NCBI RefSeq assembly: GCF_000310205.1
Contig: NZ_AMXE01000007.1
Span: 1 to 64,000, forward strand
Length of the DNA: 64,000 bases
Direction: 5' to 3'
Origin: Thauera linaloolentis 47Lol = DSM 12138
GTDB lineage: Bacteria; Pseudomonadota; Gammaproteobacteria; Burkholderiales; Rhodocyclaceae
A program made the translations under genes and the position numbers. The notes under the pieces were generated by a model. The model saw nothing but the letters and a program-made list of their open reading frames with translations, did not search any database and was not told the DNA's origin. Below, piece after piece: positions 27,376 to 63,716 of the stretch (its first letter is position 1; each line of letters begins with the position of its first letter).

Positions 27376-27512
27376 AGCGGGATCCAGGGCCAGCGGCGGC
27401 TGGCACGCGCCACTTCGCTGGCGAGCGTGGCCCAGCCCGGGATCATCAGGGTACCGCCGACGGGTGCCACTGCGCCCAGCCAGCGTGGTCCGCCCAGTGC
27501 CGGTACAAGAAG
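27375..27512 (-). pseudogene. Remnant of a DUF423 membrane protein (C-terminal end)
   Basis: Read on the minus strand this stretch gives LLVPALGGPRWLGAVAPVGG and then TLMIPGWATLA. That matches the last helix region of DUF423 proteins, where a G-x-R-W-L-G-A-x-x-P-x-G-G motif is followed by a GW-x-x-LA helix. No matching N-terminal part or start is present in frame. The rest of 27376-27667 holds only the ribosome site of the next gene. Confidence 0.45.
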
Positions 27513-27667
27513 CGAAGGCGGGCACTGTAGGCGGAAGCCGTGAATGCCCAAGCGCGCGGACGCGTCTTTTCGATGGCTTCGCTTCGCTCGCCGAGGCTGG
27601 GAAGTGCATGAGCCAGAATGGATTCGCTGGCAGATACGAGACAGGTCTCTGATGGAGGTGAAATAGG

Positions 27668-28645
27668 ATGAAGCCGGTTCTTGCTCGCGTTTTCGGTTTT
27701 TCTTTGCGGGCCGTCGCAACGTTCCTGGGATCGATCGTCGCATTTGCCTTGCCACCAAACGCCGACGGCGGACAGACCTGGGTACCGCAACCGAGCGGCA
27801 CATCGAACGAGCTTCACTCGGTCGTCATCATGCCGGGTGGCCGCTCCGGCTGGGCAGTGGGGTTCGGCGGCACGATTCTGGCCACGGCCGATGGCGGGCA
27901 AAGCTGGGTATCGCAGCGGAGCGGCACATCGAACGAACTTCACTCAGTTGCTTTCACGCCGAATGGCCGTTCCGGCTGGGTGGTGGGGTTCGGCGGCACG
28001 ATTCTCGCCACGATCGATGGTGGGCAGAGCTGGGTGCCGCAACGGAGCGGCACACCGAACGAACTTCGTGCGGTCGCCTTCACGCCGGATGGCCGTTCCG
28101 GCTGGGCAGTGGGATTTGGCGGCATGATTCTCGCGACGGCCGATGGCGGGCAGACCTGGGTACCGCAGCAAAGCGGTACACCGAACGAACTTCGCTCGGT
28201 CGCCTTCACGCCGAATGGCCGTTCCGGCTGGGTGGTGGGGTTCGGCGGCACGATTCTCGCCACGGTCGATGGTGGGCAGAGCTGGGTGCTGCAACGGAGC
28301 AGCACACCGAACGAACTTCACTCAGTCGCTTTCACGCCGGATGGTCGTTCCGGTTGGGCAGTGGGTTTTGGCGGCACGATTCTCGCCACGGCCGATGGTG
28401 GGCAAACCTGGATATCGCAGCGGAGCGGCACATCGAACGAGCTTCACTCGGTCGCTTTCACGCCAGATGGTCGTTTCGGCTGGGTGGTGGGATTTGGTGG
28501 CACGATTCTGGCCACAATCGATGGTGGGCAGAGCTGGGTACCGCAGCAAAGCGACACACCGAACGAACTTCGTGCGGTCGTCTTCACACCGGATGGCCGC
28601 TCCGGCTGGGCAGTGGGTTTCGGCGGCACGATTCTCGGCAGATGA
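27668..28645 (+). CDS. Secreted protein of seven near-identical Ycf48/BNR-like propeller blades
   Basis: The 325-aa protein consists of a 31-aa signal-peptide-like N-terminus and exactly seven 42-aa repeats with nothing left over. Each repeat reads roughly xDGGQSWVPQRSGTPNELRS then VAFTPDGRSGWAVGFGGTIL with AT at the join. DGGxxW and GWAVGxxGxIL are marks of Ycf48/BNR/sialidase-type beta-propellers, so a single closed seven-bladed propeller is predicted. The ATG follows GGAGGTG by 7 nt. Repeats differ at only a few positions, indicating recent amplification. There are no catalytic residues I recognise, so a binding or scaffold role is a guess. It is flanked by unrelated genes. Confidence 0.8.
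   Translation: MKPVLARVFGFSLRAVATFLGSIVAFALPPNADGGQTWVPQPSGTSNELHSVVIMPGGRSGWAVGFGGTILATADGGQSWVSQRSGTSNELHSVAFTPNGRSGWVVGFGGTILATIDGGQSWVPQRSGTPNELRAVAFTPDGRSGWAVGFGGMILATADGGQTWVPQQSGTPNELRSVAFTPNGRSGWVVGFGGTILATVDGGQSWVLQRSSTPNELHSVAFTPDGRSGWAVGFGGTILATADGGQTWISQRSGTSNELHSVAFTPDGRFGWVVGFGGTILATIDGGQSWVPQQSDTPNELRAVVFTPDGRSGWAVGFGGTILGR
27761..28642 (+). repeat. Seven in-frame 126-bp tandem repeats
   Basis: Seven head-to-tail 126-bp units span the coding sequence of the propeller protein; for example CACGATTCT recurs at 27871, 27997, 28249, 28375, 28501 and 28627, with a one-base variant at 28123. Alternate units are more alike than adjacent ones, pointing to duplication of two-unit or four-unit blocks. 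The reading frame is intact throughout. Confidence 0.9.
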
Positions 28646-28705
28646 GTCTGTTGCTCTGCCAAAAGCCGTCACGGCAGGCCCACCGTGCGTGTGGCCCGGC
28701 AACGC

Positions 28706-29155
28706 TCAGGCGGGCGGCGCGATGCGCAGCGGAATCGTCACTGGGCCGTCATTGACCAGTTCGACTTTCATGTCGGCGGCGAAGCAGCCGGTCTGCACCT
28801 CGGGATGGGCGATGCGCGCGCTGGCGACGAAGTGTTCGTACACCGCCTGGCCGGTCTGTGGAGCGGCGGCCTTGGTAAAGCTGGGGCGGTTGCCGCCGGC
28901 CGTGTCCGCTGCCAGCGTGAACTGGCTGACCACCAGCAGGCCGCCGGCGACATCCTGCAGCGAGCGGTTCATCTTGCCGGCGTCGTCGGCAAAGATGCGC
29001 AGCTTCAGTATCTTGGCGAGCAGCTTGTCGGCTTCGGCAGCGGTGTCGCCGCGTTCGGCGCAGACCAGCGCGAGCAGGCCATGGCCGATCTCGCCGATGG
29101 TTTCGCCATCGACGGTGACGCGTGCTTCGGAAACGCGCTGCAGGATCGCGAGCAT
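28706..29155 (-). CDS. dtd: D-aminoacyl-tRNA deacylase
   Basis: The 149-aa protein has VVSQFTLAA (about 79-87), NRPSFTKAA (about 93-101) and C-terminal [10 protein letters not shown], the Gly-cisPro-type motif, all in normal places. It hydrolyses D-amino acids from mischarged tRNA. The start ATG lies 84 bp downstream of the metY stop, beyond two hairpins. Confidence 0.95.
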
Positions 29156-29171
29156 GGATGTGGCCTTCGGG

Positions 29172-29236
29172 GCCCGGACCCCTTTGGGTGTCCGGGCACG
29201 GAGACGCCGCCGCCAGGGAATCGGGGCGGCGTCTCC
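29172..29236 (-). terminator. Double hairpin downstream of metY
   Basis: A 12-bp perfect stem (29200-29211 with 29225-29236) begins 2 nt after the metY stop codon on the minus strand. A second 8-bp stem (29172-29179 with 29190-29197) follows. There is no strong T tract, so partial termination before dtd is the likely effect. Confidence 0.55.
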
Positions 29237-29238
29237 GG

Positions 29239-30510
29239 TCAGACGGCGGCGAGCGCCTGTTCCAGGTCGTCGATGAGGTCGTCGATGTGCTCGATGCCGA
29301 TCGACAGGCGCACCATGTCGGGCGCCACGCCGGCCTTCGCCAGCTCTTCCGGCGACAACTGGCGGTGCGTGGTCGACGCCGGATGGCAGGCGAGCGACTT
29401 GGCGTCGCCGATGTTGACCAGGCGGGTGAACAGCTTCAGCGCATCCTGGAACCGCGTGCCGCCTTCGATGCCGCCCTTGACGCCGAAGGACAGGATGCCC
29501 GACGCGCGGCCGCCCATGTACTTCTGCACCAGGCCGTGGTCGGCATGCTCGGGCAGGCCGGCGTAGTTCACCCACTCGACCTTGGCATGCGCCTTCAGGT
29601 ATTCCGCCACCTTCACGGTGTTCTCGCAGATGCGGTCCATGCGCAGCGCCAGCGTCTCGATGCCTTGCAGGATCAGGAAGGCGTTGAATGGCGACAGCGC
29701 CGCGCCGGTGTTGCGCAGCGGCACCACGCGCGCGCGGCCGATGAAGGCCGCCGCGCCGAGCGCTTCGGTGTAGACCACGCCGTGGTAGGAAACGTCCGGC
29801 TCGTTCAGGCGGCGGAAGCGCGCCTTGTGCTCGGCCCACGGGAACTTGCCCGAGTCGACGATGACGCCGCCGATCGAGTTGCCGTGGCCGCCCAGGTACT
29901 TGGTCAGCGCGTGCACCACGATGTCGGCGCCGTGTTCGAAGGGGCGGCACAGGTAGGGCGAGGGCACGGTGTTGTCCACGATCAGCGGCACGCCCGCCTT
30001 GTGCGCGATTTCGGCCAGGCGGCCGATGTCGGTGATGTTGCCCAGCGGGTTGCCGACGGATTCGCAGAACACCGCCTTGGTGCGTCCGTCGATCAGCCTG
30101 GCGAAGCTGTCCGGATCGCGGTGGTCGGCGAAGCGCACTTCGATGCCGAACTGCGGCAGGGTATGGGCGAACAGGTTGTAGGTGCCGCCGTACAGCGTCG
30201 AGGCCGAGACGATGTTGTCGCCGGCTTCGGCGATGGTCTGGATGGCGTAGGTGATCGCCGACATGCCCGAGGCCACCGCCAGCGCGCCGATGCCGCCTTC
30301 CAGTTCGGCCACGCGCTGCTCGAGCACGGCGGTGGTCGGGTTCATGATGCGGGTGTAGATGTTGCCTGCCACCTTGAGGTCGAACAGGTCAGCGCCGTGC
30401 TGGGTGTCGTCGAAGGCGTAGGAGGTGGTCTGGTAGATCGGCACCGCCACGGCCTTGGTGGTGGGGTCCGGCGAATAGCCGCCGTGCACGGCGATGGTTT
30501 CGAGCTTCAT
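29239..30510 (-). CDS. metY: O-acetylhomoserine sulfhydrylase
   Basis: The 423-aa PLP enzyme belongs to the Cys/Met metabolism family. The PLP lysine lies in [13 protein letters not shown] and the [15 protein letters not shown] and [14 protein letters not shown] blocks are typical of MetY rather than MetB. It makes homocysteine from O-acetylhomoserine and sulfide. The start [11 protein letters not shown] at 30510 is preferred to longer in-frame starts. A short AT-containing promoter region separates it from rlmI. No methionine riboswitch is visible. Confidence 0.92.
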
Positions 30511-59378: not shown

Positions 59379-61067
59379 ATGGACAAGAGGGCACTCCCGC
59401 ACGGCCGCAGCCGTTTTCGCATCAGATCCGTCTGTCGTGCCGTTGCCGGCGCGTTCGCGGGGCTTGCGGCCTCCGGCGCCGCGCTCGCGTTTCAGATCGA
59501 TACCGGCAATCCGGACATCAGGATGAGCTGGGACAACACCGTCAAGTACAGCGCGAGCTGGCGCGTGAGCGGCATCGATCGCGGCGTGGCGGACGACTCC
59601 ATCGGGCCGCAGGCGAACACCAATGATGGTGACCAGAATTTCGGCCGGGGGCTGGTCTCGAACCGGCTCGACCTGCTGTCCGAGCTCGATTTCCGCTACA
59701 TGCGCAAGTACGGCTTCCGCATCAGCGGGGCGGCCTGGTACGACCAGGTCTACAACGAGTCGAACGACAATCCGGGCGCCCTCGGCGGCGCGCTGCTGAA
59801 CCAGCGCTCGGCGCGCTACAACGAATTCACCCGCGCGACCAAGAAGCTGCACGGGCGCAAGGCGGAGTTCCTGGATGCCTTCGTCTATGGCAGCTTCGAG
59901 CCGGCTGGCATGAACCTCAACCTCAAGGCGGGGCGCTTCACCCAGCTTTACGGCGAGAGCCTGTTCTTCGGCTCGAACGGCATTGCGGGGGCGCAGACGC
60001 CGCTCGACCTGGCGCGCGCGCTGTCGGTGCCCAACTCGCAGTTCAAGGAGGTCGCGCGTCCGGTCGGGCAGGTGTCGGTGACGCTGCAGATCAATCCCGA
60101 CGTGACGCTCGGCGCCTATTACCAGGCCGAGTGGCGCAAGTCGCGCCTGCCGGCGGCGGGCAGCTATTTCAGCTTCGCCGACTTCGTCGATGCCGGCGGC
60201 GAGCGCCTCATCCTCGGGCCGGGGCAGGAGGTGTTCCGGGGCAAGGACATCGAGGCGAAGGACTCCGGCCAGGGTGGGGTGCAGATCCGCTTCAAGGCCG
60301 GGGATTCCGAGTATGGTCTCTATGCCGCCCAGTTCCACGACAAGATGCCGCAGTTCTACGTGCGGCCGGGCGTCAACGTCCAGCCCGGCAGCATCGGCGA
60401 CTACGTCATGGTCTATGCGGAAGACATCCGCACCGTGGGTGCCAGCTTCAGTACCCTGGTGGGCGAGACCAACGTCGCCGGCGAATTGTCCTTCCGCGAC
60501 AACATGCCCCTGGTGGGCAGCGGCATCACCATGGTCCTGCCGGGCGACACCACCGCCGATGGCGGCGACGACGCGGCCTTCCCCAAGGGCCGGACGATGC
60601 ACCTCAACCTGTCGGCCATCAGCGTGCTGGGCGGCAGCGCGCTGTGGGACGGCGCGACCTTCGTCGGCGAGTTCGCCTACAACCGGCGGCTGAAGGTCAC
60701 CGACAACGCGCACCAGCTTGACCGCCTCGCCACGCGCAGCGCGAGCGCGATCCAGTTCGTGTTCACGCCCGAGTATTTCCAGGTGGCGCCCGGGCTCGAC
60801 CTGCAGGTGCCGATCGGCCTCAGCTACGGCCTCAGCGGCCGCTCCTCGGTGAATGGCGTGCTGTTCCCGTCCGAAGGCGGCGGCAACGTCAGCATCGGCG
60901 TCAAGGCCGACTACCAGCGGACCTGGCAGGCGGGCCTGAACTACACGCGCTACTTCGGTTCGGGCGGCTCCGTGATCCGCTACGACACCGCGGTGCCCGA
61001 GCTTTCGTACGACAACTTCCACCGCGACCGGGATTTCGTCTCGCTGTCGATCCAGCGCACGTTCTGA
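59379..61067 (+). CDS. DUF1302 outer-membrane protein
   Basis: The 562-aa protein has a long basic signal peptide (about 1-38, ending SGAALA) and a DUF1302 body opening with FQIDTGNPDIRMSWDNTVKY and ending in QRTF, the C-terminal Phe of outer-membrane barrels. DUF1302 genes almost always travel with DUF1329, a Ycf48-like protein and an RND transporter, as here. The role is thought to be in export or uptake of hydrophobic compounds but is unproven. ATG follows an AGGAGGAGG-rich ribosome site. Confidence 0.88.
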   Translation: MDKRALPHGRSRFRIRSVCRAVAGAFAGLAASGAALAFQIDTGNPDIRMSWDNTVKYSASWRVSGIDRGVADDSIGPQANTNDGDQNFGRGLVSNRLDLLSELDFRYMRKYGFRISGAAWYDQVYNESNDNPGALGGALLNQRSARYNEFTRATKKLHGRKAEFLDAFVYGSFEPAGMNLNLKAGRFTQLYGESLFFGSNGIAGAQTPLDLARALSVPNSQFKEVARPVGQVSVTLQINPDVTLGAYYQAEWRKSRLPAAGSYFSFADFVDAGGERLILGPGQEVFRGKDIEAKDSGQGGVQIRFKAGDSEYGLYAAQFHDKMPQFYVRPGVNVQPGSIGDYVMVYAEDIRTVGASFSTLVGETNVAGELSFRDNMPLVGSGITMVLPGDTTADGGDDAAFPKGRTMHLNLSAISVLGGSALWDGATFVGEFAYNRRLKVTDNAHQLDRLATRSASAIQFVFTPEYFQVAPGLDLQVPIGLSYGLSGRSSVNGVLFPSEGGGNVSIGVKADYQRTWQAGLNYTRYFGSGGSVIRYDTAVPELSYDNFHRDRDFVSLSIQRTF

Positions 61068-61099
61068 TCCCCCGGACACGACAATTTCAGGAGACGACA

Positions 61100-62452
61100 A
61101 TGATGAAGCACAAGATTCTGCCGCTGGCCGCGATCGCCGCCACGCTGATGGCGCAGGCCGCCGGTGCGGCGGTCACGGCCGACGAGGCCGCCAGGCTGAA
61201 GAGCGCGCTGACCCCGCTGGGCGCCGAAAAGGCGGGCAACGCCGACGGCAGCATCCCGGCCTGGGACGGCGGCATCACCAAGCCGCTGCAAGGCCGCAAG
61301 GTGGGCGACATTCCGGGCGAGATCTTCTCCGGCGAGAAGTCTCTGCACCAGGTCACGGCCCAGAACATGGGGCAGTACGACGCCCTGCTGTCGGAAGGGA
61401 CGAAGGCGCTGCTGCAGAAGTACCCCGACAGCTTCCGGCTGGACGTCTACCCCACCCACCGCACAGCGGCGGCGCCGCAGCGCGTCTATGACAACACTGC
61501 GCTGAACGCGACGCGCTGCAGCACCAGGGATGGCGGCTACTCGCTTGAAGGCTGCATCGGCGGCATTCCCTTCCCGATCCCGAAGGAAGGCGTCGAAGTG
61601 ATGTGGAACTTCCTGCTGCGCGTCGAGGCGCCGTCGATCGAATACCGCTTCAAGAACATCGTCGGCAATGCCGACGGCTCGCACACCCTCGCCACGCGCA
61701 ACGAGATCGCCTTCCAGTACCCGCCGTACTACGAGGACGCGACCATCGAGAAATGGTCCGGCGAGTACGCGATGTTCCGCTTCAACACCCTGGAGCCGCC
61801 GTTCAAGGCGGGCGAGTCGCTGGTGATCCGCGACGGCATCGACCAGAAGAACGCGCGCCAGGCCTGGCAGTACCTCGTCGGCCAGCGCCGCGTGCGTCGG
61901 GCGCCGACGGTGTCCTACGACACGCCCGATTTCGTCGCTTCCGGGGCGAACTACTTCGACGAGGTGCAGGGCTTCTTCGGCCAGCTCGACCGCTTCGAGT
62001 GGAAGCTGGTGGGCAAGCAGGAGATGCTGATCCCGTACAACAACAACGGGCTGGTCGGCGCCAGGCTGGAAGAGGCGCTGTCCAAGCACCATCTGAACCC
62101 CGACCAGGTACGCTGGGAGCGCCATCGCGTGTGGGTGGTGGAGGCGAACGTCGCCGCCGGCAAGCGCCACGCGGTGCCCAAGCGCCGCTACTACCTCGAC
62201 GAAGACACCTGGCTGATCGCGCTGATCGACGGCTACGACGCCGAAGGCAAGCTGTGGCGCACGACCCAGGTCACGCCTTTCGTCGTGCCGAAGATCCCGG
62301 CCACGCTGATGAAGACCGCCACCGTCTTCAACCTGCAGGCGGGCACGATGAGCGTCATCCAGGCGCTCAATGACGAGGATTTCAAGGTCGTCGAGCGCAA
62401 GCCGGAGACCTACTTCACCGGCGACGCGGTGGCTGCCGACGCCGCACGCTGA
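61100..62452 (+). CDS. DUF1329 periplasmic/outer-membrane protein
   Basis: The 450-aa protein has a signal peptide (about 1-24, ILPLAAIAATLMAQAAGA). The mature N-terminus (ADEAARLKSALTPLGAEKAG, then NADGSIPAWDGGI) is typical of DUF1329, which resembles the LolA/LolB-like fold. It lies 32 bp after the DUF1302 gene. It probably carries or accepts a lipid-like substrate for the transporter encoded downstream. That function is inferred. Confidence 0.88.
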   Translation: MMKHKILPLAAIAATLMAQAAGAAVTADEAARLKSALTPLGAEKAGNADGSIPAWDGGITKPLQGRKVGDIPGEIFSGEKSLHQVTAQNMGQYDALLSEGTKALLQKYPDSFRLDVYPTHRTAAAPQRVYDNTALNATRCSTRDGGYSLEGCIGGIPFPIPKEGVEVMWNFLLRVEAPSIEYRFKNIVGNADGSHTLATRNEIAFQYPPYYEDATIEKWSGEYAMFRFNTLEPPFKAGESLVIRDGIDQKNARQAWQYLVGQRRVRRAPTVSYDTPDFVASGANYFDEVQGFFGQLDRFEWKLVGKQEMLIPYNNNGLVGARLEEALSKHHLNPDQVRWERHRVWVVEANVAAGKRHAVPKRRYYLDEDTWLIALIDGYDAEGKLWRTTQVTPFVVPKIPATLMKTATVFNLQAGTMSVIQALNDEDFKVVERKPETYFTGDAVAADAAR

Positions 62453-62600
62453 CCTGCACGGCGCGCGCTCGCCGGCCGCTGCCGCGGAATGCGCGCAGGG
62501 CCGGCCGGCGAGGCGCCGGCTTCTCCAGTTTCTCAGATTGCTCGCCGCCGCCGTCCGCCACCCGCGGACCGGGGCGCGGCGAGGACACGGGTTCCGAATC

Positions 62601-63716
62601 ATGTCCATCAGGCTTCCAGGCCGGCGCGGCATTGCGCGCGCGGCCGTCGTTCTACCTGCCGTCCTGGCTGCGGCAACGGTCCTGGCCACGCAAACGCAGG
62701 CCGTGCCCGACCTTCTCGAGGCGCCGGCCAGCGCCGACGTCCGCGCCCAGCAGTCGCCGCAGTTGAACGTGGCGACGGCGGGCAGCCGCTTCGTCGGTGT
62801 CGGCGTGCGTGGCCTCGTGCTGCTGTCGGACGATGCCGGGCGCACCTGGCGCCAGGCCGGGGCGGTGCCGGTCAGCGTCGCGCTCACCGACGTCCACTTC
62901 GTCACCTCCACCGACGGCTGGGCCGTCGGCCATGGCGGCGTGGTGCTGCAGACCACTGACGGGGGCGAGACCTGGCAGCTTCGGCTGGACGGCCGCCAAG
63001 CCGCGCGCATCGTCTTCGAGGACGCGCAGGCCCGCGCGCAGGCCGGGGACGACGCGGCCGCCCGCGCGCTGCGCGACGCCCAGCGCCTCGTCGAAGAGGG
63101 GCCGGACAAGCCTTTTCTCGGCGTCCACTTCCTGGACGGGCAGCGCGGCTTCGCCGTCGGCGCGTACGGACTCGCGCTGGCGACCGACGATGGCGGGCGC
63201 AACTGGCATGCCTTGATGGGACGCATCCCCAACCCGCGCGGCAAGCACCTGTACACGGTCCGCGCCAGCGGCGCCGACGTGCTGATCGCGGGCGAGCAGG
63301 GGGCGCTGTTCAGGTCGCTCGATGGCGGGCAGCACTTCAGCGCGATCGAAACCCCCTACCCGGGAACCTGGTTCGGCGCGCTGGCGCTCGATCGCGACAC
63401 GTTGCTGGCCTACGGCCTGCGCGGCAACGTCTGGCGCAGCGCGGACGGCGGCGCCAGCTGGCGGCAGATCGCGCTCGGGCAGGCGGTGACGCTGACCAGC
63501 GGCAGCGTGCTGGCGGACCGTTCCATCGTGCTCGCCGACGAAAGCGGGCGCCTGCTGCGCAGCGTCGATGGCGCACGCAGCTTCACGCCCGTGGCGGGCA
63601 GTTTCCCGACCGGCCTCACCGGCCTCGCCCAGGGCGGCGACGGGGCGCTCGTGCTGTCCGGCGCGCGCGGGCTGACCCGCGTCGAGCCGGCTCAACTTGT
63701 TGCGGAATCGAGATAA
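62601..63716 (+). CDS. Ycf48/BNR-repeat periplasmic protein
   Basis: The 371-aa protein has a signal peptide (about 1-34, ending TQTQA) and irregular BNR/Ycf48 repeats such as LLSDDAGRTWRQ, TSTDGWAVGHGGVVLQTTDG, FRSLDGGQHFSAIE and WRSADGGASWRQ. It is predicted to be a beta-propeller. It is the third gene of the DUF1302 cluster and overlaps the RND gene by 1 bp. Unlike the propeller at 27.7 kb, its repeats are old and diverged. A long upstream in-frame extension is rejected. Confidence 0.85.
   Translation: MSIRLPGRRGIARAAVVLPAVLAAATVLATQTQAVPDLLEAPASADVRAQQSPQLNVATAGSRFVGVGVRGLVLLSDDAGRTWRQAGAVPVSVALTDVHFVTSTDGWAVGHGGVVLQTTDGGETWQLRLDGRQAARIVFEDAQARAQAGDDAAARALRDAQRLVEEGPDKPFLGVHFLDGQRGFAVGAYGLALATDDGGRNWHALMGRIPNPRGKHLYTVRASGADVLIAGEQGALFRSLDGGQHFSAIETPYPGTWFGALALDRDTLLAYGLRGNVWRSADGGASWRQIALGQAVTLTSGSVLADRSIVLADESGRLLRSVDGARSFTPVAGSFPTGLTGLAQGGDGALVLSGARGLTRVEPAQLVAESR

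Follow-up and report, generated by a model that had tools for sequence, protein, structure and literature searches.

The window analysed here comprises 64,000 nucleotides (positions 1 to 64,000 of contig NZ_AMXE01000007.1) of Thauera linaloolentis 47Lol, genome G000 in our survey, and carries a gene for a short protein in which a signal-like segment is followed by seven similar propeller blades. The locus raises the question of why there are exactly seven: the number may have been selected for closure of a ring, inherited from a seven-blade ancestor, or it may be incidental. We consider it likely that the gene encodes an exported Ycf48-like ring of seven blades, that it belongs to a rare subfamily of inserted genes, and that selection returns the blade number to seven.

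Gene anatomy and predicted fold

The gene and its repeat units are located as follows:

27668..28645, plus strand: propeller gene with ATG start, 325 aa, match to PF14870 (E 3.6e-35)
27654..27658, plus strand: GGAGG, similar to a ribosome binding site, 9 nt 5′ of the ATG, read from the sequence
27668..27760, plus strand: signal-like segment, 31 aa, with helix 8-27 in the model; would direct export
27761..27886, plus strand: repeat unit 1; strand 39-40 (DSSP of the model), the first of this unit, is the N-terminal one and would complete the last blade
27887..28012, plus strand: repeat unit 2 (repeat anatomy)
28013..28138, plus strand: repeat unit 3 (repeat anatomy)
28139..28264, plus strand: repeat unit 4 (repeat anatomy)
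28265..28390, plus strand: repeat unit 5 (repeat anatomy)
28391..28516, plus strand: repeat unit 6 (repeat anatomy)
28517..28642, plus strand: repeat unit 7, which stops after the third strand (GTILGR; repeat anatomy and model)

The original prediction had given the gene these coordinates and a composition of 31 + 7 × 42 = 325 residues without remainder. Both are borne out by the DGGQ motifs at residues 33, 75, 117, 159, 201, 243 and 285, which set a period of 42 residues, and by TRF, which reported a period of 126 with 7.0 copies (score 1166) and also a period of 252 (score 1303). The runner-up array elsewhere in the window scored 69, and the repeat is far above chance expectation. The N-terminal 31 residues are hydrophobic and signal-like, the C-terminus coincides with the end of unit 7, and the motif DGGQ[ST]W, of the SxDxGxTW type that characterises Asp-box propellers, is present in 7/7 units, with T in the place of S in six of them. 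Two long open frames run over the array in other frames (28143-29276, plus strand; 27940-28321, minus strand); they are probably by-products of the repeated sequence and not genes.

Description of the blades as near-identical, differing at a few positions, was overstated, as any two of them agree at 28-38 of 42 residues and at 97-115 of 126 bases. Nor is the array very young, as had been proposed, because dS between blades is 0.22-0.73 (21 pairs, NG86). The corresponding dN/dS of 0.11-0.35 is below one, and the differences between blades therefore look filtered by purifying selection. The same divergence bears on the possibility that reads collapsed or expanded the array during assembly and the count is wrong. 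The genome of the window is a draft of 220 contigs, and that of the two-blade relative described below (G003) consists of about 160; the window blades, however, differ at 11-29 of 126 bases, which is enough for unique assembly, and another seven-blade relative (G830) comes from a genome in a single contig. We regard such an artefact as highly improbable.

Assignment to a Ycf48/BNR-like family held: the protein scores 122.1 bits against Pfam PSII_BNR (PF14870, Ycf48-like; gathering cut-off 27), and its top PDB sequence matches are Ycf48 proteins. Against the NCBIfam Ycf48 equivalog NF010237 it stays below the cut-off (150.1 bits of 326). AlphaFold2 with the single sequence gave a pLDDT of 57, and this model was left unused for closure. 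With a 32-sequence alignment, pLDDT was 93.4 and pTM 0.86; in this model, helix 8-27 is followed by a short strand (39-40) and by a pattern of four strands in each 42 residues, and the C-terminus has three strands between 301 and 324. With strand 39-40 and the three final strands, the strands are arranged as in the 3+1 closure common among propellers. Ranked by E-value, the leading Foldseek hit was Ycf48; against WRAP-T (7big), a designed ring of seven blades, the model reached a target-length TM-score of 0.89 (rmsd 2.3). The structure prediction proposed originally as a check of ring closure is thus consistent with a ring of seven blades, predicted to close in the 3+1 manner. As the alignment consists of proteins of similar length and partly imposes seven blades, the model supports closure without proving it.

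An inserted gene without common neighbours

The segment around the gene and the truncated gene beside it are located as follows:

27502..28700, no strand assigned: segment without counterpart in relatives, i.e., the propeller gene with a little flanking DNA on either side, which interrupts a DUF423 gene; right border approximate
27393..27515, minus strand: 3′ remnant of the DUF423 gene, 41 residues, corresponding by tblastn (L173 185-307) to residues 108-148 of the G003 protein (61%)

The propeller gene is an orphan single inserted gene, lacking at the same site in relatives. DNA of five genomes (G003, G023, G013, G001 and G008) aligns with the window as far as position 27501 in every case, and the alignment resumes at 28699-28711; all five have a DUF423-like gene at the site (the G003 protein matches PF04241 with E 2.5e-26). 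Between the two alignments lie about 340 bp in G003 and G023, against about 1.2 kb, with the propeller gene alone, in the window; in G013, G001 and G008 there are 1.2-1.4 kb of other sequence. At the remaining ten dtd loci the left side is unaligned up to 27501 and is uninformative on the border. Within 1.5-kb dtd flanks a propeller was found in 0/15 other genomes (dtd was found at threshold in 16/29). Genes at these and the following loci are presumably dtd, mobB, dinG and a desaturase gene; Pfam matches nearby were MoeA, Helicase_C_2/DEAD and DUF423.

The closest relative in the genus occupies another site, between mobB and dinG:

L135 6381-6728, plus strand: complete two-blade gene of G003 with a signal-like start, which in one species of the genus forms an intergenic insertion of about 480 bp

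In G023, with a mobB 98% identical, this site measures 63 bp compared with the roughly 480 bp of G003, and among 26 genomes examined of 28 others, the window's own included, none has a blade match there. Outside their coding parts, the G000 and G003 inserts share 0 common 9-mers; no mobile element was recognised in either, and a search of the genome with the upstream part of the window insert (27490-27770) gave no further copy at E ≤ 0.01.

The gene had also been described as standing alone without an evident partner, and the wider comparison agrees. Among the six loci of related stand-alone genes, 0/15 pairs have common neighbours (masked tblastx, 8-16 kb flanks, at least 60 bits). Nine neighbours recognised by Pfam are ordinary: MoeA, a DinG-like helicase, a pyridine-nucleotide oxidoreductase, FtsK, a SlmA-like regulator, a poly(A)-polymerase-type nucleotidyltransferase, an aldo/keto reductase, a sigma/FecR fusion and a sigma factor.

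We infer horizontal transfer of the propeller gene. Its G+C content (0.636, against 0.672 in the surroundings) is close to that of its neighbourhood and therefore lends little support to a recent event. Viral contigs gave one match in a protein scan (26%) and 19 stretches in a pattern scan, with an ORF carrying at least three tested motifs in 0/19; plasmids gave 7 records at E ≤ 1e-20, all below 60% identity to the propeller. We therefore did not retain a link to phages or plasmids.

Blade numbers in relatives and the origin of seven

Relatives were surveyed by genome at thresholds of 1e-20 to 1e-36, with the seven blades as query, a setting that favours long arrays; together with searches by flanking sequence, this made 1809 genome look-ups, repeats counted. 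Blades were counted by profile, Asp-box-only leaders being excluded as units; for the remaining ORFs, the profile count covers the top 45 among those listed. Duplicate loci were counted once (L104, L139 and L141 = L133; L105 = L134; L137, L140 and L142 = L147; L145 and L169 = L144; L168 = L143; L171 and L172 = L170; L146 = L136; L135 = L011). A stand-alone subfamily of the window gene and five others emerged, sharing one plan: a signal-like start, a unit 1 that begins in the Asp-box strand, and an end after the third strand. Blade numbers and median blade identities were:

Window (G000), stand-alone: 7 blades, 0.81
G1164, stand-alone: 7 blades, 0.78
G830, stand-alone: 7 blades, 0.62
G838, stand-alone: 7 blades, 0.50
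G425, stand-alone: 5 blades, 0.67
G003, stand-alone: 2 blades, 0.71
G057, fused array: 14 blades, 0.79
G230, fused array: 14 blades, 0.62
G610, fused array: 14 blades, 0.58

The five-blade gene and the fused cousins are located as follows:

L146 7528-8253, plus strand: five-blade member, between ftsK and a small gene, which we take to be Dps-like
L133 3474-8186, minus strand: KAP-NTPase protein with exactly 14 similar Ycf48-like blades (2 × 7), from profile count and KAP_NTPase match
L134 2743-7065, plus strand: KAP-NTPase protein with 14 Ycf48-like blades, same evidence
L147 5408-9814, plus strand: KAP-NTPase protein with 14 Ycf48-like blades, same evidence

Two arrays of uncertain blade number were omitted from the copy-number comparison. 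That of G556 (L138/L148) had 14 units by a loose count and 3 by profile. In Verrucomicrobia, L039 5497-7692 (plus strand) is an ORF of 732 aa in which similar Asp-box blades of 41 aa, with a median identity of 0.66, occur at least 11 times; the profile gave 11 units and two double-length gaps.

The subfamily is rare and sporadic. Within the window's genus, 12/29 genomes match the propeller at E ≤ 1e-20, the window's own included; among the rest, a close match (61%) comes from G003 alone, while the other ten, at 31-36%, resemble ordinary Ycf48-like proteins. One scan of the genome_contigs collection returned 113 relatives, and among the best 80 of 113 identity was at most 50%. Two blade motifs, SGTxNELxSV and GFxG, mark the subfamily. 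GF of GFxG is present in 35/35 stand-alone blades (VGF in 33, AGF in 2) versus 0/42 fused-array blades, and in 1/287 comparable motifs in 125 other Asp-box ORFs; NE of NEL is present in 24/35 stand-alone versus 0/42 fused blades. Further Ycf48-like genes occur in the window's genome on contigs C88, C155, C33, C72 and C7, and an ordinary one lies in the window at 62370-63716 (plus strand), with stretches of 29% and 43% identity to the propeller. The two genes ahead of it (block 59379-63716, plus strand) are presumably of DUF1302 and DUF1329 type.

These markers also weigh on a relationship to the fused proteins, which possibly form an envelope receptor-NTPase family. All three array proteins of G057, G230 and G610 match KAP_NTPase and have hydrophobic segments by eye (the G230 ORF continues past the end of its contig after the array); the two scanned against PADLOC match its QatA, PifA and PDC-S20 models. 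With an array in G057 that is 53% identical to the window protein, the latter might be a soluble relative of such receptors, with a part in conflict or defence as a sensor, a competitor or a decoy. The window protein itself, however, matched 0 PADLOC families at E ≤ 0.01, the GF and NE marks occur in 0/42 fused units, and no NTPase gene was recognised adjoining the propeller among neighbours partly searched by profile. We therefore judge this role decidedly improbable.

Selection for seven blades had been expected, against which freely varying numbers in relatives would speak. The numbers found in the five relatives, 7, 7, 7, 5 and 2, lean to seven but vary. Altogether 4/6 stand-alone members have seven blades and 3/3 fused arrays have 14, a leaning that six members, few and not independent, cannot settle. 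Under a crude uniform model that ignores relatedness and ascertainment, at least 4/6 members at seven has P = 0.0087 with six classes and 0.00046 with thirteen. The five- and two-blade genes have intact ends; seven is therefore not fixed, and closure at seven is not obligatory.

Such variation would also be expected of a drifting or decaying amplification product without benefit, in which seven is incidental. The gene is an orphan of sporadic occurrence, a consensus promoter was found 0 times with 0.1 expected by chance, and disrupted young propellers exist in non-trivial number according to the main text of Pereira and Lupas (PMC9218822). Against this, the ORFs of G000 and G003 are intact and preceded by GGAGG, dN/dS is below one between blades and versus G003, and, within the crude models just given, exactly seven is overrepresented. 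Drift of this kind seems unlikely to us.

A further alternative is descent. A single ancestral seven-blade gene may have been homogenised by gene conversion, seven being inherited and the five- and two-blade genes being contractions. By eye, G000, G003 and G1164 appear similar in their signal-like segments, and the members begin in the Asp-box strand and finish after the third strand, as common ancestry would have it. Inheritance followed by blade-by-blade divergence should leave blades at equal positions as the best matches. In the six pairs of seven-blade proteins, however, none of the comparisons over all seven circular offsets put offset 0 first by itself, and it was tied for best in 2/6 at printed precision, so that 0/6 pairs carry a positional signal. 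Without blade correspondence by position, the arrays seem to have been re-amplified, rearranged or homogenised since their common ancestor. Blade identity is higher within than between proteins for G000 (0.81 vs 0.67) and G1164 (0.76 vs 0.67), but not for G830 (0.62 within vs 0.63 to G000) or G838 (0.47 within vs 0.52-0.55 to the five others). For the latter two, with blades no more alike within than between, independent amplification is not apparent from the sequences. Concerted evolution could still account for the lost positional signal, and seven by descent is an explanation that we hold possible while leaning against it.

How the window array grew may be traced in a weak hint of growth by two blades, given by the alternation of GWAV and GWVV between blades and by the 252-bp TRF period. 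The partition {2,4,6}/{3,5,7} of units 2-7 ranks 1/10; the signal is weak because {2,4,6} ranks 3/35 once unit 1 is included. The main text of Pereira and Lupas (PMC9218822) reports one case in which the repeat unit consists of two blades.

Proposed function and comparison with known systems

In the reading that we prefer, a ring under selection for seven blades, the protein is probably exported, as its signal-like segment suggests, and would be periplasmic or extracellular. The seven tandem 42-residue blades would form the ring, with the residues after the signal-like segment serving as fourth strand of the last blade. Arrays would be re-amplified or homogenised time and again, recombination shifting the number by whole blades, and selection for a foldable closed ring would usually bring it back to seven. 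The propeller would most likely serve as a scaffold with up to seven similar sites, to which a peptide, protein or polymer would bind; no binding partner is evident, and no neighbour is common to any of the 15 locus pairs.

The five- and two-blade genes may be contracted remnants, or rings closed by self-assembly of chains. For the two-blade gene, dN/dS versus the window blades is 0.04-0.15 in unit 1 and 0.15-0.48 in unit 2, values in which dS is near saturation in many pairs and the two branches are not separable. A natural copy-number series of 2, 5 and 7 blades (14 in fused arrays), in which the members too short to close form rings by self-assembly, is a possible but on balance doubtful idea; if true, it would be the natural Asp-box counterpart of engineered WD40 and Pizza fragments. 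The two-blade gene is the best lead here and perhaps encodes a natural self-assembling propeller fragment. Its predicted protein can be likened to the two-blade chains of the design Pizza2, of WRAP fragments and of the Ralstonia solanacearum lectin, whose chain has two blades; these chains assemble into rings and belong to other propeller lineages. Engineered WD40 fragments form tetramers from two-blade and dimers from five-blade chains (PMC6805158), Pizza2 forms trimers (PMC7337062), and the propeller of the Ralstonia lectin is likewise a trimer (PMC11883740). The reason for the rarity of natural oligomeric propellers is unclear according to the main text of Pereira and Lupas (PMC9218822).

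The window protein resembles Ycf48/HCF136, the photosystem II assembly factor (PDB 2xbg, 5ojp, 5ojr), in its Asp-box blades and predicted seven-bladed ring. Blades of Ycf48 are divergent from each other, unlike those of the window protein with 28-38 of 42 residues shared, and the score of the latter lies below the equivalog cut-off. The KAP-NTPase fusions have the same 42-aa blade type in 14 = 2 × 7 copies but differ by their hydrophobic segments (by eye) and P-loop NTPase; the available part of Kaur and others (2020; PMC7159879) contains no KAP-Ycf48 fusion. On the stand-alone subfamily, no literature was found by title or abstract start.

A further parallel is the class of highly repetitive propellers described by Pereira and Lupas (2022; PMC9218822), with blades more than 60% identical; the window protein has a median of 0.81. 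According to the main text of that study, such propellers occur in all major lineages, the Asp-box group making up to 5% of the set. They arise by amplification within a lineage without a counting system, and yet their blade numbers are biased to each lineage's preferred value and mostly match it. From WRAP of Nostoc, a WD40 propeller whose type protein has no synonymous substitutions in that description, the window protein differs by its dS of 0.22-0.73 and by being short, stand-alone and provided with a signal-like segment. Compared with the main text, it fits as a new member of the class. Its family consists of short stand-alone proteins with 2, 5 and 7 similar blades and comparable starts and ends; natural proteins could therefore be compared directly for how rings close, whether chains self-assemble and how selection acts on the number of blades, and the propeller gene illustrates usefully, in nature, a known route of ring evolution.
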